Shown piece by piece: positions 100 to 12,213 of a stretch of 38,577 nt of DNA (positions are counted from its first letter, which is position 1; every line of letters starts with the position of its first letter). The notes beneath the pieces were generated by a model. It had not been told where the DNA came from. It saw nothing but the letters and a program-made list of their open reading frames with translations, and ran no database searches. The stretch comes from an uncultured Bacillota bacterium (GTDB lineage: Bacteria; Bacillota_I; Bacilli_A; RF39; UBA660): NCBI GenBank assembly GCA_947650795.1, contig CANSWR010000009.1, positions 1-38,577 on the forward strand, read 5' to 3'. Position numbers and translations under genes: made by a program.

Positions 100-693
100 T
101 TAGGTAATAATTATTCTAAAAAATTTGACTTTATTCCTTTTGATATGCTTCGTAAACGTTTTCAAAAAATACTTTTAGACTTACTTCAAAAAGACATTGG
201 TAAAGAAAAATTTAGAAGTATCAAAAATAAAGTTTATTCTAAGTCTTCTAATGGTTTCTATGTAAGAGCTAAAAAGAATGAATTTCCTAATTCTAAAAAA
301 GCTATTTCTTATATTTTAAGATATTGTGGTAGACCTTGCTTTGCTGAATATCGTATAATAGATATAGATAGCGAAGATTATATCTCTTTTTGGTATCAAA
401 GACATGAAGATGATAAATTCGTTATTGAAAAAATTCACATATTTGAATTCATTGCTAGAATTATTAGACATATTCCAGAAAAGGGTTTTAAAACTATTAG
501 ATACTATGGTTTCTACGCTTCTAAATCTCATAAACTTTATAATACTTGTAGATTATTAATAGATACAGCTAAAGTACCATTTTATAAATCTTTACTTAAA
601 TGGAGAAATTTCATTTATACTACTTTTAAACATGATCCTTTGAAATGTCCTAACTGTGGTTCCACTATGACTTTTGAATATGCATTTACTTAA
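100..693 (+). pseudogene. IS91-family (Y2) transposase, C-terminal part only
   Basis: The open frame continues upstream of the ATG at 145 to about 100 (residues GNNYSKKFDFIPF, then MLRKRFQKILLDLL), so 145 is an internal Met and not the true start. The visible protein carries the C-terminal half of the Y2 transposase domain: an AISYILRYCGRPCFAEYR segment, then HIFEFIARIIRHIPEKGFKTIRYYGFYAS-type residues (about 93-127), and a C-terminal Cys pair (CPNCGS, about 170-175). The N-terminal zinc finger and the HUH metal-binding motif of IS91/IS801 transposases are absent. The 5' end is replaced by an oppositely oriented IS1634-like fragment, so this copy should be unable to transpose by itself. Confidence 0.75.
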
Positions 694-711
694 AGGAGTT
701 AAGGTTTATTT

Positions 712-924
712 ATGAAAAATCCAAAAGAAATCGAATTTATTTGTACAAGATGCAAAACTAAAGAAAGGATAACAACTGAAATAGTAGAAATGCTAGATAA
801 AGCAGATCAAATTGGAGTTGATACTTCAGTACCACCTAGATTTGACTGTGAAAAATGTCCAGGAAAAATGGTACCCATCTATTATGTAGGAGTTAATGGA
901 AAAGTATATGAATATAAAGAATGA
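712..924 (+). CDS. small zinc-ribbon protein downstream of IS91-type transposase
   Basis: This 70-residue acidic protein has two CxxC pairs (CTRC near residue 11 and CEKC near residue 46), as expected of a small zinc ribbon. It has no signal peptide or membrane segment. An AAGGAG site at about 693-698 lies 13 bases before the ATG, and the gene starts 18 bases after the transposase stop, so the two are probably co-transcribed. A strong hairpin terminator follows it. I infer that it is an accessory gene of the IS91-type element. Its function is unknown. It is intact although the transposase is truncated. Confidence 0.6.
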   Translation: MKNPKEIEFICTRCKTKERITTEIVEMLDKADQIGVDTSVPPRFDCEKCPGKMVPIYYVGVNGKVYEYKE

Positions 925-937
925 TAAATTCAATCAT

Positions 938-976
938 AAAGATTGGGTATGTTTTCACATACCCAATCTTTATTTT
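938..976 (+). terminator. rho-independent terminator after the Zn-ribbon gene
   Basis: A perfect 14-bp stem (938-951 with 958-971) closes a 6-base loop and is followed by a T-rich stretch (TTTATTTTA). It sits 14 bases after the stop of the small zinc-ribbon gene and ends the IS91-type transcription unit. Confidence 0.8.
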
Positions 977-999
977 ACAAACACATTTTCGTCAGTTCT

Positions 1000-1024
1000 C
1001 TTATAGGTTGAAATTTCCTATAAG
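1000..1024. repeat. 8-bp inverted repeat upstream of AAA ATPase
   Basis: CTTATAGG (1000-1007) and CCTATAAG (1017-1024) form a perfect inverted repeat with a 9-base spacer. It lies 30 bases before the ATPase ATG, at the point where the open frame of the ATPase begins (an in-frame TAG at 1004-1006). It could be an operator or a scar of the element's left end. There is no T-tract, so it is not a terminator. Confidence 0.4.
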
Positions 1025-1054
1025 ACAAAAAAAGACATCATAATCGAAGGATTA

Positions 1055-1951
1055 ATGAGGTCTAAAGGTGTTTATTTACTTGTATCAAAACCTAAAGTGG
1101 GAAAGTCTATGTTGGCACTGCAACTTTCCTACTGTATAACCAATGGATTACCATTTCTAGGACACAAAGTAATTCCATCACCTGTCTTATATATTAGCAC
1201 AGAGTCCGATTTTGGTCAATTACAGGACCGTTATAAAACACTAGGTCTAATTCCAAAAAAGGATTCTTTATTCATTATAGATAGAGATGGGAAACCTAAT
1301 ATAAGCATACTAGATCATGAAGAGAAATTTGATGATTTTTCTGGTGATAAAACAACAAATAAATTAGTAATCATTGATATGCTTAAAGATATGGATTTAG
1401 GTATCTCCTACGATATAAATGATTTTCAAGATGTAGCACAAAAGTTAATGCCTAAGTTAAGAGAATTATGTGAGAAATATAATCTCACAATATTATTTAC
1501 ACATCACCTAAATAAAAGAAATGAAACATTAGGTAGCACAGCTTTTGATGCTTGTATAGATGGAAAAATAACTTTGTTTGAAACTAGAAACGACCATAAT
1601 CATTTAATTATGAAAGTAATTAATAGAGATTTTCCTGGATTAGATATGAACTTAAAAAGAAATGAAAATCAAACTTTTAAAATAAGTAATCCAGTTGAAG
1701 ATGATGAACTTGATGAGAACTTAATTCTTTTTATCAAATATGCATCATTAAAGAAAGATTTTGAATTTACTCCTACCAGTATTATTCATGATGCTAAATT
1801 AAAGACAACAGCATTACGATTTGGAAGAATGTTAAATGCAAATATGGATTTATTACAAAGAGAAGGACTTCATATAACGAAGAACAGAACAAGTGATAAA
1901 AGAATTTATCATTGTATATATGAAGAACCTAACCTCGAAGATGATGAATAA
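1055..1951 (+). CDS. RepA-like AAA ATPase (AAA_25 type) of a mobilizable element
   Basis: This is a RecA-fold P-loop ATPase of the kind encoded beside relaxases in mobilizable elements. Walker A is SKPKVGKS (residues 11-18); a Walker B strand, NKLVIIDM, lies near residues 102-109; and FTHHLNKR (about 150) matches the sensor region. The C-terminal ~70 residues look like a winged-helix segment. The frame stays open upstream to 1007 and encodes KKDIIIEGLMRSKGVYLLV. This continues the usual family N-terminus, yet no ATG, GTG or TTG lies there. Either ATG 1055 is used (weak AAGGA three bases before) or the gene is 5'-truncated. By analogy it would assist replication of the excised circle as a helicase-type ATPase. 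Confidence 0.65.
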   Translation: MRSKGVYLLVSKPKVGKSMLALQLSYCITNGLPFLGHKVIPSPVLYISTESDFGQLQDRYKTLGLIPKKDSLFIIDRDGKPNISILDHEEKFDDFSGDKTTNKLVIIDMLKDMDLGISYDINDFQDVAQKLMPKLRELCEKYNLTILFTHHLNKRNETLGSTAFDACIDGKITLFETRNDHNHLIMKVINRDFPGLDMNLKRNENQTFKISNPVEDDELDENLILFIKYASLKKDFEFTPTSIIHDAKLKTTALRFGRMLNANMDLLQREGLHITKNRTSDKRIYHCIYEEPNLEDDE

Positions 1952-2031
1952 TCATCTTCTAAAAATAAGAACGAGGCACGTTTTGTTGCAAAGCAATGAA
2001 AGTGGCGATAGTGATTATTTTGGGATTTTTA

Positions 2032-2086
2032 AGGGTGAACCCTCACGATTGGGCTATGCCCTAGTGAGATAGGTCATAAATGACCT
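2032..2086 (+). other. oriT-like cluster of inverted repeats before the relaxase gene
   Basis: Three consecutive inverted repeats lie in the 171-base gap before the relaxase. They are AGGGTGAACCCT (2032-2043); CTCAC (2042-2046) pairing with GTGAG (2064-2068) around an inner GGGC-TAT-GCCC hairpin (2051-2061); and AGGTCATAAATGACCT (2071-2086). MobV relaxases usually nick at hairpins just 5' of their own gene, so I infer that this is the transfer origin. The nick site cannot be read from the sequence. Confidence 0.5.
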
Positions 2087-2122
2087 CTACTACTAAAATC
2101 ATAAGTAAAGGAGGATAAAAAA

Positions 2123-3547
2123 TTGTATGATGGCAAACAAGTAGTACGAGTAGTAACCCAATATAAGAAAGCAGACCTTTATAATATCGGTGTTGAAATG
2201 AAAGATAGAAAAGGTACAGGAAATTATGATATTGAACGAAGAGAATTTAATTATGAATATGTATCTCTTACTCAAAATAACCTTTATCAAGAAGTAAAAA
2301 AGAAGTTAAAGGATAGAAAAATAGAATATCTAGATAGACCTAACAATAATCTATTAAATGGTGTAACATTCACAAGTGGTCCTGAATTTTTTCAATCACT
2401 TGGAATGAAATTTAAAGATAGTGGTAGAACTTATCATACTGGCGATAAAAAAGGACAAGCAGTAATGATTCCTGTTATCAAATCAAAGGAAGATATACCT
2501 AATGCTGTAACTTACTTTTTTGATTCTTGTATGGAATTTTTAAAAGACTATGTTGGTGAAGAGAATATACTTCTTTCTCAAATCCATTATGATGAAGATA
2601 CTCCTCACCTACAAGCCTATTTTGTTCCCGTTGTAAACAAAGTTAAAAGAAAATGTTTTGTAAGGGATAAAAATGGTAATGTCGTAAAAGAAAAAACAAC
2701 AAATAAAAAAGGTATGACTACTATTACTCCAAAATTACTTCGTGATGATAAAGGGAAAATCGTTTATGAAGAAGTCGAAGGAACTTTCCTCAATTGTGAT
2801 CAATTTTGGAAAGATAGAGGTGGCAAATTATCTTTTCATAAAATGCAAAATGCCTTTAATGAATTTATTACAGAAAAGGGCTTTAACCTTTATCGTGGTA
2901 ATATTGGAAGTAATAAAGAAAATCAAACTAAATTAGATTATGATATAGCTGAGAAAAAAGCCGAATTAGAAGAATTAAACAAAGAAAAGGAAAATACCTT
3001 AAAGATTATTGAAAATTCTAAAAATGGGCTTAAAAATATTGAAAATAATGATAGTAATTTAAATCCTGTTAAAAGGAAATTTGGTGGTTATAAAAATGAG
3101 GATGTTCTTAGATTCATAAAATACACAAGAGGTTTAGAGCATAAAATAATTATCTTATCTACCGATAACTCCAATAAAGATATAGAAATAAATAAACTGA
3201 CTGAAGAAAATAAGACTTTTAAAAATAATAAGGAACTCCTAAAAAGAAATGAAATTATTAAAGAACAAAAATCTACTATCCAAGATCAAAAAGAAGAAAT
3301 TAGTAAATTAAGTGGTTTAGTAGATGTATTAAATAATAATATTGCTAGTCTTAAAGATAAATTAGAAACTGAAGTTAATAAGTGGAAAAATCTTTTCCAA
3401 AAAATGTGTAAGGCAATAGATAAAGTTTTAAAACGAGATAAGCCTAAAGAAAGACTTGAGGACTATGAAGATATAGCAGATGCTATTAATCATGGTTATT
3501 ACGGCAAAAACAATAAGAATAAAGATGATTTTGAAATCGAAAGATAG
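2123..3547 (+). CDS. MobV-family relaxase (Mob/Pre plasmid recombination type)
   Basis: This nicking relaxase would start single-strand DNA transfer of the element from oriT. The first ~210 residues form the Mob_Pre domain, with the metal-binding motif HYDEDTPHLQAYFVPV starting at His155 (second His at 162). The last ~190 residues are a Lys/Glu-rich coiled coil typical of MobV proteins. The start is TTG at 2123: a perfect AAAGGAGG (2107-2114) lies 8 bases before it, and the family N-terminus (here YDGKQVVRVVTQYKKADL) fits. The length of 474 residues is normal and the frame is intact. An oriT-like hairpin cluster lies directly upstream, and the integrase gene follows 96 bases downstream. Confidence 0.88.
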   Translation: MYDGKQVVRVVTQYKKADLYNIGVEMKDRKGTGNYDIERREFNYEYVSLTQNNLYQEVKKKLKDRKIEYLDRPNNNLLNGVTFTSGPEFFQSLGMKFKDSGRTYHTGDKKGQAVMIPVIKSKEDIPNAVTYFFDSCMEFLKDYVGEENILLSQIHYDEDTPHLQAYFVPVVNKVKRKCFVRDKNGNVVKEKTTNKKGMTTITPKLLRDDKGKIVYEEVEGTFLNCDQFWKDRGGKLSFHKMQNAFNEFITEKGFNLYRGNIGSNKENQTKLDYDIAEKKAELEELNKEKENTLKIIENSKNGLKNIENNDSNLNPVKRKFGGYKNEDVLRFIKYTRGLEHKIIILSTDNSNKDIEINKLTEENKTFKNNKELLKRNEIIKEQKSTIQDQKEEISKLSGLVDVLNNNIASLKDKLETEVNKWKNLFQKMCKAIDKVLKRDKPKERLEDYEDIADAINHGYYGKNNKNKDDFEIER

Positions 3548-3555
3548 AACTATCA

Positions 3556-3607
3556 GCACTTCTATTGGAGAAACCTATCAATTATGGTAAACTACCAATT
3601 GAAGTGC
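3556..3607. repeat. 13-bp near-perfect inverted repeat between relaxase and integrase
   Basis: The arms at 3556-3568 and 3595-3607 match at 12 of 13 positions and are separated by 26 bases. The repeat lies 36 bases before the integrase ATG. There is no T-tract after it, so a terminator is unlikely. A control site for integrase expression or a recombinase arm site is possible (inference). Confidence 0.45.
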
Positions 3608-3643
3608 GTGTATAGTCTAAACTAAGCAAAGGAGGAATAATAA

Positions 3644-4789
3644 ATGGCAGTTAGACTATTAGAAGAAAAGAAATGGACCAAAGATGGTCGAAAATATATA
3701 TGGTATGTTTGGGAAACTGGTTTGGATGGTAAAAAACATAAGAAGTTTTCCAAAGCATATAAAACAGAAGCAGAAGCAAAGCGTGCTGAAAAAGAATATT
3801 TAAAAATGTCTGAAGTATTTGAAGGTGATATGAATATGACCTTCAAAGAATTATACACTAAGTATTACGAGGTTCAAAAAGATATTGTAAGATACTCAAC
3901 CTTAAAAACTTATCGAGATAGAATCAAATATATTGGAATGTTTGATAAAGTTAAACTAAAGGATATGGATGCTATTCATTATCAAAAATGGAGAGCTGAA
4001 ATGATGAAAGTCGATATTTCAAATAGTTATAAAAATGAAATTCAAAAGTTTTTAAAGATAGTCATTAATTGGGCTGTTAAGACTTATGGATTCAATATGA
4101 ATAAGTTTTATGGTCGAATGGAACCTTTTACTTCGGCATCAGATATAAAGAAAGAAATGGACTTTTATACTTTAGAAGAATTTAATCAATTTATATATTC
4201 TGCACCAAATTTACAAATTAAATGTATGTATGAAACTTTATATTATTGTGGACTTCGTAGAGGTGAAGCTAGAGGATTACAATGGAAAGACGTTAATTGG
4301 ATTGATAAAAGATTATCAGTTACAAAACAAGCAGTAACTCATGGTTCTGAAAATTCCACAAATTACGAATTAACAAAACCTAAAACGCAAAAAAGCAACA
4401 GGATATTACCTATTGCAGAAATACTTTTTAGAGATTTAAAACAATTATATGAAGAACAAAAACAATTTGCTGAGTTTAATGATGAATGGTTTATATTTGG
4501 AAATTTCATTCCTATAACCTTCTATCAAATGAGACATAAGAATATAGAAATTGCTAGAGATGCTAATATCAAGAGAATAAGGTTACATGATTTTAGACAC
4601 AGCTGTGCATCTTTACTAATAAACAACAATGCTAATATAGCAGTTGTATCTCAATTCTTAGGTCATGCATCTATTGAAGAAACTCTAGATACTTACACTC
4701 ACATGTTCAAAGATAAACTTAGCGATGCTGTTAATACTATAAATAAACTAACTTGTCCCGAACCTACGATAGTGGATTTTGGTAGTTAG
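3644..4789 (+). CDS. int: tyrosine integrase of the mobilizable element
   Basis: This is a site-specific recombinase of the tyrosine family that would integrate and excise the element. It has an N-terminal AP2-like arm-binding region (about 1-55), a core-binding SAM-like domain (about 60-160) and a catalytic domain (about 175-375). Catalytic residues are visible: Arg205 in GLRRGE, a lysine in the beta-hairpin KPKTQKSNR, His315/Arg318 in HDFRHS, His341 in LGHAS, and Tyr351 in LDTYTHM. The length of 381 residues is standard for Tn916-type integrases. An AAAGGAGG site precedes the ATG. The gene is intact, so the element may still move if its ends survive. Confidence 0.92.
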   Translation: MAVRLLEEKKWTKDGRKYIWYVWETGLDGKKHKKFSKAYKTEAEAKRAEKEYLKMSEVFEGDMNMTFKELYTKYYEVQKDIVRYSTLKTYRDRIKYIGMFDKVKLKDMDAIHYQKWRAEMMKVDISNSYKNEIQKFLKIVINWAVKTYGFNMNKFYGRMEPFTSASDIKKEMDFYTLEEFNQFIYSAPNLQIKCMYETLYYCGLRRGEARGLQWKDVNWIDKRLSVTKQAVTHGSENSTNYELTKPKTQKSNRILPIAEILFRDLKQLYEEQKQFAEFNDEWFIFGNFIPITFYQMRHKNIEIARDANIKRIRLHDFRHSCASLLINNNANIAVVSQFLGHASIEETLDTYTHMFKDKLSDAVNTINKLTCPEPTIVDFGS

Positions 4790-5753: not shown

Positions 5754-7751
5754 CTAATCTAAACTTTTGATTTCGTTTATTATTTTATAATATTTTTCAT
5801 TATTTTTAAAGTTATTTCTGATGTTTTTTAATAGAAATTCTTCAGAATCTTCTTTTGCTGCAAGTAAAATTTTAAAATCATTATTTATAGATGCTATTTT
5901 AAAAGATTGCTCTCCACTTTGTCTTTGTCCAAAAAGATCTCCTTCCTTTCTCATTTCGAAGTCTTTTTCTGTTATATAAAATCCATCTGTACTTTCTTCT
6001 AAAACTTTTAATCTTTTATTGCTTTTACTTCCCATCAAAATACAAGTACTTTCTAGGCTATTTCTTCCAATTCTACCTCTTAATTGATGAAGTGTCGCAA
6101 GTCCAAATCTTTCAGCATTGAATATTATCATCATTGTAGCATTAGGAACATCCACACCAACTTCTATAACAGTCGTTGATACTAAAATTTTTGTTTTTCC
6201 ATTTTTAAAATCTTTCATTATTTTTTCTTTATCTTCTTTTTCTAGTTTACCATGCAATGAAGCTATTTCTATTTTCTTATTAAATGCTATATCTAATTTA
6301 TTTTTTAAATCGTTTACAGTAGTAAGTTCACTGTTTTCTGTTTCTTCTATAAGAGGAGTAACTACATAAATTTGATGATTTTTTTTGATTTCTTCAAGCA
6401 TCATATATAATACATCTTTTATTTCTTTTTCACTCTTTATAACAGTTTTTATTTCTTTTCTACCACTTGGCTTGGTCTTTATAAGTGAAACATCCATATC
6501 ACCATAAACTGTTAAAGCGTATGTTCTTGGTATAGGAGTTGCTGACATATATAAAATATCAGGAATTAATCCTTTATTTCTTAAAGAGTTTCGTTGATTT
6601 ACTCCAAATCTATGTTGCTCATCAGTTATTACTAAACCTAAATTTTTAAATTTTACTCTATCACTTATAAGAGAATGTGTCCCAATGAGCAAATCTATTT
6701 TTCCATTTTTAAGTTCTTCATAAATTATTTCTTTATCTTTTCTTTTTGTACTTCCTAATAAAAGTGCAACTTTCATATTTGTATGCTCTAACAAGGTGCA
6801 AACATTATTGTAATGTTGTGTCGCTAAGATTTCTGTAGGTGCCATTAATGCTGTTTGATATCCTGCTAAATAGCATTCATAAGAAGCTGTTATTCCTACA
6901 ATAGTTTTTCCACTCCCAACATCTCCACATAGTAATCTATTCATTCTGTTATGACTTGTTAAATCTTTATGAATTTCATTTATTGATTTTTTTTGATCTT
7001 CTGTCAACTCAAAAGGTAACATTCCAAGAAATTCTTGTAATTCTTTTAGTTCTACTTTTTTTGGTTGTTTATTATTATCTTTTTTTTTGACATATTTTAA
7101 ATAATTAATTTTAAACATAAATTCAAATAATTCTTCATATATTAATCTTATTTTTGCTTTTTTTGTATCATTTATATTATATGGATGATGGATTTTTCTT
7201 ATAGCTTCTTCTTTACTTATAAATTTATATTTCTCTTTATATTCTAAAGGAATGTAATCTATAACTTTAGGTGACATTTTTAACGCTGTATCTATCAGTT
7301 TAATCATTTGTTTATTATTTATTCCTTGAGTAAGATGATAAACGCTTTCTGTGCTACCTTCTTGCACTTCACTAAATAAGATATTATTTGCTACTATTAT
7401 ATTTTTCTTTACATTATACTTCCCAGTAATAGTTACTCGCTTTCCTACTACTATATGATTTTTTATAAATGCTCTATTATAAATTGTAATATTTATTAAT
7501 TTTCCATTAGTATTTAGTTTAAAATTTAAGCTATTTAATTTAGCTCTAAAATACCTAGATATAGGTAAACTTTCTATTGTTCCTACCACTACTACTTGTG
7601 AATCGTTTTGTATTTCATTTATATCATTAATTTTATATTCAATATATTTATCTGGATAATATTCGATTAAATCTTCTATACTAAATATATTTAATGAGTT
7701 TAGTAATTGCTCGTTTTTTTCTCCTAAGCCTTTCATGGTTTGTAAGTTCAT
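5754..7751 (-). CDS. recG: ATP-dependent DNA helicase RecG
   Basis: This branch-migration helicase remodels stalled replication forks and Holliday junctions. It has an N-terminal wedge/OB domain (about 1-220), Walker A GDVGSGKT (about residues 275-283), the DEQH box (about 375-378), the SATPIPRT motif just after it, and the arginine-finger motif QLRGRIGR (about 555-562). The length of 665 residues is slightly shorter than E. coli RecG, as in many Firmicutes. The start at 7751 has no clear Shine-Dalgarno site. A second Met five codons on (MKGLGEKNEQLL) is nearly as good, because RecG N-termini often begin near a KGVG motif. Confidence 0.95.
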   Translation of the reverse strand: MNLQTMKGLGEKNEQLLNSLNIFSIEDLIEYYPDKYIEYKINDINEIQNDSQVVVVGTIESLPISRYFRAKLNSLNFKLNTNGKLINITIYNRAFIKNHIVVGKRVTITGKYNVKKNIIVANNILFSEVQEGSTESVYHLTQGINNKQMIKLIDTALKMSPKVIDYIPLEYKEKYKFISKEEAIRKIHHPYNINDTKKAKIRLIYEELFEFMFKINYLKYVKKKDNNKQPKKVELKELQEFLGMLPFELTEDQKKSINEIHKDLTSHNRMNRLLCGDVGSGKTIVGITASYECYLAGYQTALMAPTEILATQHYNNVCTLLEHTNMKVALLLGSTKRKDKEIIYEELKNGKIDLLIGTHSLISDRVKFKNLGLVITDEQHRFGVNQRNSLRNKGLIPDILYMSATPIPRTYALTVYGDMDVSLIKTKPSGRKEIKTVIKSEKEIKDVLYMMLEEIKKNHQIYVVTPLIEETENSELTTVNDLKNKLDIAFNKKIEIASLHGKLEKEDKEKIMKDFKNGKTKILVSTTVIEVGVDVPNATMMIIFNAERFGLATLHQLRGRIGRNSLESTCILMGSKSNKRLKVLEESTDGFYITEKDFEMRKEGDLFGQRQSGEQSFKIASINNDFKILLAAKEDSEEFLLKNIRNNFKNNEKYYKIINEIKSLD

Positions 7752-7959: not shown

Positions 7960-7988
7960 TTGACTTTTTACCACTTTTCCTTTAGTAT
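7960..7988 (+). promoter_or_regulatory. sigma-A type promoter of the small RNA candidate
   Basis: TTGACT (7960-7965) and TAGTAT (7983-7988) are separated by exactly 17 bases, on the plus strand in a region where all neighbouring genes are on the minus strand. Transcription would start at about 7995, just before the first hairpin. Confidence 0.55.
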
Positions 7989-7994
7989 ATAGAC

Positions 7995-8093
7995 TTACCA
8001 ATTCACTTTAGGCGAATTGGTGCTAGTATCACACTAGCCAACCCCTTTTTATTCTTTTTTCCGGATAGCTCTCAGGGGGAGCTGTCCTTTTTT
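7995..8093 (+). ncRNA. candidate small RNA with switch-like hairpins and terminator
   Basis: A transcript of about 100 bases would begin after the promoter at 7960-7988. Stem 1 is ACCAATTC (7997-8004) with GAATTGGT (8014-8021). Stem 2 is GCTAGT (8022-8027) with ACTAGC (8033-8038) and can extend because TTGG (8017-8020) may pair with the CCAA after it, which would break stem 1. Stem 2 is followed by CCCC and a T-rich run, so it can act as an early terminator. A final terminator hairpin follows at 8063-8087. No ORF with a ribosome site lies inside. The unpaired C-rich patch resembles the seed of Firmicutes base-pairing RNAs. It matches no riboswitch I can recognise, and its only plus-strand neighbour downstream is a convergent gene, so I favour a stand-alone sRNA. 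Confidence 0.5.
8063..8093 (+). terminator. rho-independent terminator of the small RNA candidate
   Basis: GGATAGCTC (8063-8071) pairs with GAGCTGTCC (8079-8087), with one G-U pair and a 7-base loop, and is followed directly by six Ts (8088-8093). Confidence 0.7.
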
Positions 8094-8107: not shown

Positions 8108-8133
8108 TTAAAAAACCCAAATTTTGGGTTTTA
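8108..8133 (-). terminator. bidirectional terminator after the lipoprotein gene
   Basis: AACCCAAA and TTTGGGTT (about 8114-8132) form an 8-bp stem with T-runs on both strands. On the minus strand it overlaps the TAA stop of the lipoprotein gene. On the plus strand it would also stop read-through from the small RNA. Confidence 0.65.
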
Positions 8134-8721
8134 ATTATCTAGCAATAATTTATATGATAAGCTTTCAGCATAAATAGTTTCATTAGAATCTTTTTCATCT
8201 TTATAAGCTTCATTTAATAAATTATATATTTCTAACAACTCATATATTTCGTAAGCTGGTTTTAAATGGTCTTTTTCTATTATATTTTCTAATCCTCCAT
8301 ACCAACTTTTATCATCCGTAATAGGTACTACTATAGATTTTTCAGTAGAGCTTAAATCTTCTTTTGCGTATACAAATATTGTTCGCTTATCAGTGTATTC
8401 AGTAAATACTCCTACATATTCTTTATTATTAACATCTCTATATATATAAGAAGTTGATTTATTCATTGGTGTGTCTAGTTTTTCATCATGCTCGGTTCCT
8501 ATTTTATATAAGATTAAGTATCTTTCATTGATTCCTTTTTTTGAAACATTAGAATTGTAAGTATCAATTATTACTATGTCTTTTGTATCAATGGATGTTT
8601 CACTTATCTCTATAGATGTTTCATTTTTTTCTTTTGAACTACAAGCAGTTAATGTCGTTGCCATTGTGTTTAAAAGCACGGTTCCTGCTAGTAATAAAGC
8701 TATTTTATTTTGTTTTGCCAT
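8131..8721 (-). CDS. lipoprotein of unknown function
   Basis: This 196-residue protein has a clear type II signal peptide: a basic start (MAKQNK), a hydrophobic core and a lipobox LTAC with the lipidated cysteine at position 27. A Ser/Thr/Glu-rich linker follows (about 28-50). The mature part is a mixed, charged domain containing DKSWYGGLENIIEKDHLKP, which I do not recognise. It should be anchored to the outer face of the membrane. AAAGGAGAG precedes the ATG, and it has its own promoter in the short gap after nifJ, so it is at least partly independent of nifJ. There is no substrate-binding-protein signature and no transporter nearby. Confidence 0.8.
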   Translation of the reverse strand: MAKQNKIALLLAGTVLLNTMATTLTACSSKEKNETSIEISETSIDTKDIVIIDTYNSNVSKKGINERYLILYKIGTEHDEKLDTPMNKSTSYIYRDVNNKEYVGVFTEYTDKRTIFVYAKEDLSSTEKSIVVPITDDKSWYGGLENIIEKDHLKPAYEIYELLEIYNLLNEAYKDEKDSNETIYAESLSYKLLLDN

Positions 8722-8796: not shown

Positions 8797-11700
8797 TTAT
8801 TTTGGAAGAATATTCTCTTTACTTAATTTACTATAATATTCATATCTTTTTTTAGCATTAGTCATATTTGTTATGTAAAGCCTTTCATATTCTTCTTCAT
8901 TTAATGATTCTAAGTTTTTATATCTCATTTCTTTTGCAAATACTGTTTCATATAGTTGAAAGTTAGGTTCTTTTGAATCTATATAAAGTTTATTTTCTTC
9001 TGGAACATATCTCATCAATATATTGTATCCACTTTCTACAAGTAATTTTTGTTCTTCTATACTATTTGAAAGACCTCCTTTTATTCCGTGCGCTATACAT
9101 GGACTGTATGCAATTATTAAGCTAGGGCCTTTGTGTTCTGTTGCTTCTTTGAAAGCTTTTATTGTTTGTTCTCTTGAAGAACCAGCACTTATACTTGCAA
9201 CATAAACGTTTGGAATTTGCATTGCAATATTAAATAAATCTTTTTTTGGTTTAAGTTTTCCTGTACTTGAGAATTCTGCAATTGCGCCTATTCTAGTAGA
9301 CTTTGATGTTTGACCACCTGTGTTTGAATATACTTCAGTATCTAAAACTAATACTTTTATATTTTCATTTGTTCTAAGAACATGATCTAAACCGCCAAAT
9401 CCTATATCATATGCCCATCCATCTCCTCCAACTATCCATACATTTCTATATGGAATATATTCTGATAAATCTTTTAAATCAGATCTGATTTTTTTGTTTT
9501 TTAATTCATTTTGAACTTTTAATGTTATTTCAGAATTTTCTTGATTATCTATCCAACTTTTAAATATGTCTTTTGTAGCAATATCAACCTCATCTTTTGT
9601 TTCTATCATTATTTCTTTTATTCGTTTTCTTGCTGCTTTATATGCCGTGTGTAATCCCAAACCAAATTCAGCATTATCTTCAAATAAGGAACTAATCCAA
9701 GGAATCTTATATGGTGTGCATGGCAAACTTGCTCCGTATATTGATGAACAACCTGTAGCATTTGCTATTACGATTTCGTCTTTATATAATTCAGTTAAAG
9801 TTCTTAAATAAACTGTTTCTCCACACCCAGCACATGCTCCTGGAAATTCAAATACTGGTTTTGTAAATCCTAAGCTTTTTACTGAATATTTTGGAAAGTT
9901 TGTTATATTAGTATGTTTTTCGTTAAAATAATCACATATTTTATCTTCTTTATGATCTGGAGTAGTCATTATAAGTGCTGATTCTCCACCGCGGCCAGGA
10001 CAAACTTTAGAACACAGACTACATCCTGTACAATTATCTGTATTTATGCTTAGGTAAAAGCTTTTATTTTCTTCTCCAATACTTGGTATAGTGTCGTTTT
10101 TGTCTATTGGAGATAATTTTATTTCATTTTCAGTTAGAGACACTGGTTTGATAACAGCATGAGGACATATGAAAGCACAAGCATTACATTCTATGCAATT
10201 TTCCTTGCACCATTTTGGAGCAAGATTTGTAATTTTTCTTTTATCTGAAGCACTCCATCCTCCTTCAAATGTACCATCAGCATGATTAATAAAGTCTGAT
10301 ACTTTTAATGAATTGGCACGTTTTTTTAGCATTATATTTAGGAAGTCTCTCTTTTCTTGGATCTCTTCTGTTTCAGTTAGAGTATTTATATTGATTTCTC
10401 TTAAATAATTTATACTTTCTTCTAAAGCTTTTAAATTAGACTCTACTACATCTACTCCTTTATCAACGTAAACAGATTTTATATTTTCTTTAAATTTCTC
10501 TATATCGTTTTTATTTACTCCTAACATTTTTAATATATACATAGATATAATGTTATTAATTTTCCCATGCAATTTATATTTTTCTGCTAAGCCATCAGCA
10601 TTCGTTACAAAAAATTTTATATTATTTTCTTTTATTTTCTGTTTTATATAATTTGGGATATAATCATTAAGTTCATCGTCTGTCATACTTGTATTTAGTA
10701 AGAATATTCCACCTTTTTTTATGCCTTCTAGTATATCATATTTTTCTAAATATGAGTCTTTTGATACAACTATTAAATTAGGTTCTGTTAAATAATATGG
10801 AGCATTAATTGGTTTATCATGTATTCTTAAATGACTTATTGTTACGCCTCCACTTTTCTTAGAATCGTATTCAAAGTAACCTTGTATATAGTTTCCATCT
10901 TTTTCTCCGATTACTTTTAGTATATTTTTACTTGCACTTACCATTCCATCTGAACCAAATCCATATACTTTTATTTCTTTGTATTTCATGTCTATTTTAT
11001 ATTCTTTTTCTTCTAAGTTTGTATTAGTTACATCATCTATTATACCTATTGTAAAATGGTCTTTCATTTTATGTTTTTTCATGTTGTCAAATACACTTTT
11101 TATTTGTGATGGCGTAGTATTTTTACTTGATAATCCATATCTTCCACCTATTATTTCTATATTTTCGCCTTTTAAAGCAGTACATATATCTAAATAAAGT
11201 GGTTCTGCTAATGATCCAGCTTCTTTAGTTCTATCTAAAACTGTTATTTTTTCAGTAGTTTTTGGTAAAACTTTTAGAAAATATTTTATGCTAAATGGCC
11301 TATATAAATGAACATTTATTACTCCAACAGAATCATCTTGCGTGTTTAAATCTTCAACTACGCTTTTTATAGTATCCACTACTGATCCCATAGCAATAAT
11401 AATGTGTTTTGCATGTGACGCGCCATAATATGTAAATGGTTTGTATTCTGAGCCTACTATTTCGTTTATCTTTATCATATATTCATTAACTATATCTGGT
11501 AGACATTCGTAGTATTTATTTCTTACTTCTGTGTTTTGAAAATATACATCTTCTGTTTCGCTAACTCCTCTTGTTATAGCTTTTCCTATGTTTAGGGAGC
11601 GACTTCTAAATTTTGTTACACTTTCAAAATCTATTAATGATTTTATTATATTATCTTCTAAGACATTTATTTTATTTATTTCATGACTTGTTCTAAATCC

Positions 11701-12213
11701 GTCCATAAAATGTAAAAACGGAATACTTCCTTTTATTGCAGACAAATGACTTATTAGTGCCATATAATAAGCGTCTTGAACGTTTGAACTTGAAAGAAGC
11801 GCGAATCCTGTCATACGAGTTGCATAAATATCTTGATGATCTCCAAATATAGATAATGCGTGTGTGGACAAGCTTCTAGCAGAAACATGAATAACACCTG
11901 GCAAAAGTTCTCCTGCGATTTTATACATTTCTGGTATCATTAATAATAATCCTTGACTTGCCGTAAATGTAGTACTTAAACTTCCAGCTTGTAGTGAACC
12001 ATGAATAAATCCAGCTGCTCCTGCTTCTGATTGCATTTCTACAACTGTTATTTTTTCATCAAAAATATTTCTATCACCACGGTTAGCCCATTTGTCTGTT
12101 AGGGTTGCCATTGGACTTGCTGGGGTTATTGGGTATATTCCACAAGTTTCTGTAAATTTAAAGGATGCAGTAGCACACGCTTCATTACCATCTAATACTT
12201 TTAAATTTTTCAT
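8797..12213 (-). CDS. nifJ: pyruvate:ferredoxin (flavodoxin) oxidoreductase
   Basis: This cytoplasmic enzyme oxidizes pyruvate with CoA to acetyl-CoA and CO2, passing electrons to ferredoxin or flavodoxin, and is a central step of anaerobic fermentation. All domains are on one 1138-residue chain: the N-terminal PFOR domain with GNEACATASFKFTETCGIYPITP; the gamma-type domain with KKSGGVTISHLRIHD; two [4Fe-4S] clusters from CIECNACAFICP (about 670-686) and CTGCSLCSKVCPG (about 726-741); and the thiamine-diphosphate domain with CAGCGE (about 791) and GDGWAYDIGFGG (about 926-938). The length is slightly below the usual 1170. An AGGTGA site precedes the ATG. It appears monocistronic. The enzyme indicates an anaerobic lifestyle. 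Confidence 0.97.
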   Translation of the reverse strand: MKNLKVLDGNEACATASFKFTETCGIYPITPASPMATLTDKWANRGDRNIFDEKITVVEMQSEAGAAGFIHGSLQAGSLSTTFTASQGLLLMIPEMYKIAGELLPGVIHVSARSLSTHALSIFGDHQDIYATRMTGFALLSSSNVQDAYYMALISHLSAIKGSIPFLHFMDGFRTSHEINKINVLEDNIIKSLIDFESVTKFRSRSLNIGKAITRGVSETEDVYFQNTEVRNKYYECLPDIVNEYMIKINEIVGSEYKPFTYYGASHAKHIIIAMGSVVDTIKSVVEDLNTQDDSVGVINVHLYRPFSIKYFLKVLPKTTEKITVLDRTKEAGSLAEPLYLDICTALKGENIEIIGGRYGLSSKNTTPSQIKSVFDNMKKHKMKDHFTIGIIDDVTNTNLEEKEYKIDMKYKEIKVYGFGSDGMVSASKNILKVIGEKDGNYIQGYFEYDSKKSGGVTISHLRIHDKPINAPYYLTEPNLIVVSKDSYLEKYDILEGIKKGGIFLLNTSMTDDELNDYIPNYIKQKIKENNIKFFVTNADGLAEKYKLHGKINNIISMYILKMLGVNKNDIEKFKENIKSVYVDKGVDVVESNLKALEESINYLREININTLTETEEIQEKRDFLNIMLKKRANSLKVSDFINHADGTFEGGWSASDKRKITNLAPKWCKENCIECNACAFICPHAVIKPVSLTENEIKLSPIDKNDTIPSIGEENKSFYLSINTDNCTGCSLCSKVCPGRGGESALIMTTPDHKEDKICDYFNEKHTNITNFPKYSVKSLGFTKPVFEFPGACAGCGETVYLRTLTELYKDEIVIANATGCSSIYGASLPCTPYKIPWISSLFEDNAEFGLGLHTAYKAARKRIKEIMIETKDEVDIATKDIFKSWIDNQENSEITLKVQNELKNKKIRSDLKDLSEYIPYRNVWIVGGDGWAYDIGFGGLDHVLRTNENIKVLVLDTEVYSNTGGQTSKSTRIGAIAEFSSTGKLKPKKDLFNIAMQIPNVYVASISAGSSREQTIKAFKEATEHKGPSLIIAYSPCIAHGIKGGLSNSIEEQKLLVESGYNILMRYVPEENKLYIDSKEPNFQLYETVFAKEMRYKNLESLNEEEYERLYITNMTNAKKRYEYYSKLSKENILPK

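Follow-up and report, generated by a model that had tools for sequence, protein, structure and literature searches.

The window, by which we mean the whole 38,577-nt stretch of DNA analysed here, carries a compact plus-strand feature at 7960-8093, in a gap between genes of the minus strand. Upstream and divergent from it lies recG (5754-7751), and directly downstream lies a convergent 196-aa ORF of unassigned function (8131-8721), followed by nifJ encoding pyruvate:ferredoxin oxidoreductase (8797-12213), which is also convergent. The preliminary description had placed the feature between recG and a convergent gene, with no gene downstream that it could control. Both points are borne out, as the convergent gene is the 196-aa ORF and the nearest downstream ORF is on the opposite strand at 73 of the 98 loci possessing such an ORF. 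A comparison of the recG-nifJ gap among relatives had been proposed; of 107 loci homologous to the small RNA (sRNA) described below, recG was found at 68 and nifJ at 47. Mobile-element genes occupy positions 145-4789 of the window and comprise a Y2 transposase, AAA_25, a Mob/Pre relaxase and a tyrosine integrase adjoining yebC.

The feature begins with a sigma-70-type promoter (7960-7988), in which the -35 box TTGACT (7960-7965) is separated by a 17-nt spacer from the -10 box TAGTAT (7983-7988). From this -10 box we infer the 5' end of a predicted sRNA of about 99 nt (7995-8093). In the RNA fold it consists of hairpin 1 (ACCAATTC...GAATTGGT, 7997-8021), hairpin 2 (GCTAGTATCACACTAGC, 8022-8038), a C/U-rich single-stranded linker, CAACCCCTTTTTATTCTTTTTTCC (8039-8062), and an intrinsic terminator (8063-8093) with its stem-loop at 8063-8087 and its T-run at 8088-8093. 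The linker includes a module common to phages (8040-8056), which contains the predicted seed (8042-8055) that pairs computationally with the leader of a putative noc gene. Folding of 7990-8093 (104 nt) yielded -34 kcal/mol (z = -4.5), a value equalled by none of 200 shuffles, and no ORF of at least 80 aa covers this region, which is intergenic with a promoter and an intrinsic terminator of its own. The terminator is the sole terminator-like site in 1 kb, where 0.2 would be expected. Taken alone the promoter is weak evidence, because the surrounding kilobase holds nine such sites against 7.0 expected. Among the homologues, 125 of 131 have a -10 box, and 90 of these 125 also have a TTGACA-like -35 box (at least four of six positions), which is perfect in 73. 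The good promoter, two hairpins, C-rich single-stranded patch and strong final terminator first recognized by eye are all present.

The sRNA is widespread within one order of bacteria. A 29-nt pattern spanning hairpin 2 and the linker, searched with a tolerance of three mismatches, was found in 246 of the 288 genomes searched from the order, representing 95 of 102 genera; the order appears to be the GTDB order RF39. Nearly all of the matches listed show zero mismatches, and the reversed pattern gave no match in the same 288 genomes. In a scan at class level, all genomes bearing the pattern belonged to one and the same family, and a shorter linker pattern was found in 15 of 19 genomes of that family versus none of 373 others. 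All nine genomes of the window's own genus have a match, and eight matches, the window's own copy included, cover the full or nearly full RNA at 94-100% identity (94-98% for the full-length copies set against it). Unlike the sRNA, the flanking DNA fails to align between these copies. The 118 homologous loci appear to derive mostly from uncultured gut Bacilli/Tenericutes, and at one locus (L080, positions 5097 and 5252) the sRNA occurs in two tandem copies 155 bp apart. Across 131 distinct copies, conservation reaches 98-100% at nearly every position of hairpin 2 and the linker, a figure that is partly owed to the choice of search pattern, and the near-invariant run is about 36 nt long.

The two outer stems have instead diverged with their pairing kept. 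Compensatory changes among relatives, on which the preliminary description had made its reading depend, are present in hairpin 1, where four of seven pairs are altered on both sides among 77 homologues and every measure of compensatory change beats all 500 shuffles. The terminator has 58 different arm pairs in the same 77 homologues, and its stem is formed in all of them. Despite this variation, 102 of 131 homologues retain AGGGG in their terminator. This sequence is complementary to CCCCU in the linker (-9.6 kcal/mol for the isolated duplex), and the AGGGG of the terminator loop may mask the CCCCU seed. In the window copy, this contact would be weaker, because part of the AGGGG loop sits within the predicted terminator stem.

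The conservation, the compensatory changes in hairpin 1, the terminator stem kept despite variation and the recG/nifJ flanks together identify 7960-8093 as a real feature, which on sequence evidence is a conserved sRNA gene, independent of its neighbours and equipped with a promoter and a terminator of its own. These lines of evidence, with the promoter, also lend strong support to the earlier suggestion of an orphan trans-acting RNA on the plus strand. That the region might simply separate convergent transcripts, as a bidirectional terminator or as intergenic filler, is scarcely credible: its terminator does adjoin a convergent gene, but most homologues have their own promoter, hairpin 2 and the linker are nearly invariant over about 95 genera, and compensatory changes are present. 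Almost as improbable is an attenuator or ligand-responsive switch built on mutually exclusive hairpins, which was suggested by the sight of two adjacent hairpins and a T-run. The hairpins had been thought to compete for the same TTGG segment, but the competing TTGG:CCAA pairs have a probability of 4e-6 to 7e-6 (about 6e-6), and the best fold in which they are forced reaches -7.7 versus -16.3 kcal/mol, a cost of 8.6 kcal/mol. No covariation was found for the TTGG:CCAA helix among the homologues, and in three loci (L015, L016 and L020) the hairpin 1 arm is altered and CCAA is not. Nor does hairpin 2 with its T-run look like a premature-termination signal, because CAACCCC separates the stem from the T-run, and the nearest downstream ORF mostly faces the opposite way. 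With neither mutually exclusive structures nor a downstream gene on the same strand, the RNA was not classed as a riboswitch or attenuator, and that part of the preliminary description is not upheld.

Candidate targets of the linker were sought among mRNA leaders. The CCCC of the linker is no general anti-Shine-Dalgarno sequence, because these genomes mostly use AAGGAGG as their Shine-Dalgarno sequence, and pairing of the linker over the ribosome-binding sites of all genes was no better than that of shuffled linkers. A general role in blocking Shine-Dalgarno sequences was therefore rejected, and without such a global enrichment the case for particular targets depends on two genes picked by a screen. 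Among 377 orthologues screened in two genomes (G000, the window's genome, and G034), the best joint duplex (-18.2 and -18.3) was formed with a ParB-family gene. The family model that fits it best, TIGR04285 (1.4e-81), describes the nucleoid occlusion protein, although the match falls below the curated cut-off (273.7 versus 315). Like its B. subtilis counterpart, this putative noc adjoins rsmG, mnmG and mnmE. In 30 genomes, the noc leaders, which are related by descent and form a follow-up of the two-genome screen and not a fully independent test, gave a mean of -15.66 versus -10.72 (sd 1.07) kcal/mol for shuffled linkers, none of 200 of which equalled it; the reversed linker gave -9.77. The pairing linker bases are CCCCUUUUUAUUCU, each used in a fraction of 0.8-1.0 of the leaders, and the predicted duplex covers the noc Shine-Dalgarno region in 30 of 30. 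The third gene in the two-genome list encodes a GH31 glycosidase, whose leaders, chosen and related in the same manner, gave z = -3.7 and were equalled by none of 100 shuffles (1 of 200 in another run). By computation, then, a conserved single-stranded linker is complementary to the leaders of the unlinked noc and GH31 genes.

Other genes gave no comparable signal. The leaders of the parB paralogue showed no favourable pairing (-7.77, z = +1.6), and nothing emerged from ten automatically clustered ortholog groups at the same loci (z = -1.5 to +2.5), one of which (z = -1.2) combines noc with parB genes. Weak pairing was seen for the mraZ leaders in both screened genomes; we attribute it to known MraZ boxes, and mraZ was set aside as a target. 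At five loci (L127, L139, L434, L432 and L435), the rsmH coding sequence is exactly complementary to the linker over 17-19 nt, in a stretch encoding the peptide LKRIKRGF; this complement is likelier a codon coincidence, because it is absent from rsmH of the window's genome, and rsmH was rejected. No perfect full-length complement is conserved in mRNAs across the genus. rRNA was considered as a partner as well, but the genomes searched for it contain no LSU sequence. Near-perfect complements were observed in the window's genome at a prophage-like gene, over its ribosome-binding site (contig 26, L250:1480-1530), and in the ssb leader of another genome (G002, L246:1500-1520). Hfq was found in 0 of 30 genomes of the order, and the RNA was thus not counted among Hfq-dependent sRNAs; the same search detected Hfq in 5 of 14 control genomes.

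The linker also occurs in phages. The motif AACCCCTTNTTATTCTT had 55 matches in viral contigs versus 20 for the reversed pattern. A hairpin directly adjoins the motif in 16 of the 43 unique viral contexts, 11 of which also have a -10 box in position, whereas none of 15 contexts of the reversed motif has a hairpin or a -10 box. The phage -10 box lies 11-12 nt before the hairpin and is TATAAT in 7 of the 11 contexts. In antisense orientation, the motif matches include six with a hairpin, three of them with a -10 box as well, partly because in some phages the hairpin comes after the motif. Hairpin sequences vary from phage to phage, and in two contigs (L046 and L050) a tRNA-like sequence is followed by the entire hairpin 2. 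Genes for terminase, portal or head proteins lie on L053, L054, L058 and L206, and a prophage copy of the motif in the window's genome lies upstream of terminase and portal genes. A common hairpin follows the motif in L045, L052 and L056. Just past the motif in L181, L206 and L212, terminator loops contain CAT, a short spacer and ACCTCC, which is complementary to a Shine-Dalgarno sequence plus start codon, and the other strand could hold the start of a short ORF. The distribution of the motif suggests that the phages bearing it infect hosts of the same order, and the eleven viral contexts that combine a -10 box, their own hairpin and the host linker suggest that phages exploit a host regulon.

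We regard it as probable, judging from sequence comparison and computed pairing, that the locus encodes a stand-alone, Hfq-independent, trans-acting antisense sRNA found in a single order of gut Bacilli with small genomes, with noc as its best-supported target and GH31 as the second. The linker bases CCCCUUUUUAUUCU would pair with the 5' leader of the target mRNA across the Shine-Dalgarno sequence, and the duplex would block ribosome binding and repress translation of noc, the nucleoid occlusion gene adjoining rsmG, and perhaps of the GH31 glycosidase gene. The AGGGG of the terminator loop may keep the seed covered until displaced by the target. Phage small RNAs with the same linker and other hairpins would probably act on the same mRNAs. 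A broader proposal, which we put forward tentatively, is that one seed module, common to a host core-genome sRNA and many unrelated phages of those hosts, controls the amount of the nucleoid occlusion protein, and that phages tap the division/nucleoid regulon via their own hairpins.

It is less likely, but deserves consideration, that the RNA is structural or protein-binding, with a linker to which a host protein binds (much as with 6S RNA or an RNA that sequesters a protein) and phage copies that serve as decoys. The conserved run of about 36 nt exceeds what an mRNA seed usually needs and may reflect binding to a protein or to a highly conserved RNA, phages retain the linker yet swap hairpins, and there is no full-length mRNA complement conserved within the genus. 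However, the linker bases that phages keep are those predicted to pair with the noc and GH31 leaders, and the pairing with noc is better than in all shuffles. We find it distinctly unlikely that pairing with noc is incidental to an sRNA that acts mainly on other mRNAs, or on those of phages and mobile elements as an anti-invader RNA. The complements in the prophage-like gene and the ssb leader would agree with such a role, but each is present in only one genome of the genus, and phages bear the motif in sense orientation, which would give them no protection by pairing with the sRNA.

To our knowledge, no sRNA has been described from these uncultured gut Bacilli. The covariance search against Rfam suggested at the outset matched the window RNA to no family of Rfam 15 at the gathering threshold; the best scores below it were for ncr1241 (RF02451, 21 of 60 bits) and sbrA (RF01489, 17 of 45 bits), to which the RNA was not assigned and which it resembles mainly in the terminator part. 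Within the literature collection searched, no paper has the linker motif and none joins RF39, Bacilli and small RNA. The window RNA is a new sRNA family, of a kind, the trans-acting base-pairing sRNAs, that is already known. Streptococcal csRNAs consist of a hairpin, an unpaired anti-Shine-Dalgarno stretch and a terminator, and the layout here may be similar; the linker, however, is CCCCUUUUUAUUCU, while the usual Shine-Dalgarno sequence is AAGGAGG. In RsaE/RoxS, IsrR and LhrC of Firmicutes, C-rich unpaired stretches between hairpins pair with Shine-Dalgarno regions. The window RNA has a similar C-rich stretch between hairpins; it matched no model of Rfam 15, differs in linker and structure, and has its linker in common with phages. 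A 574-nt structured RNA, ROOL (RF03087), is encoded on one phage contig (L056:7168-7759, 170 bits), where the linker motif at L056:6780 precedes it by about 390 nt; the window itself has no ROOL match. DicF is an sRNA of the Qin prophage of E. coli that regulates ftsZ (PMC5069750), a phage-borne sRNA that base-pairs on a cell-division gene, similar to the phage copies and predicted noc target here. DicF, however, belongs to a defective prophage and targets ftsZ, whereas the window sRNA belongs to the core chromosomal genes of an entire order, the linker is the main part that its phage versions have in common with it, and Hfq was not found in the 30 genomes. DicF and the C-rich Firmicutes sRNAs are the nearest known relatives in function.

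About 93% of the genera sampled carry the sRNA, in an order where Hfq was not found, and the concrete predicted target of the RNA, noc, would tie it to cell division. Phages seem to reuse the seed of this host sRNA, and the linker could serve as a marker linking phage contigs to these hosts.
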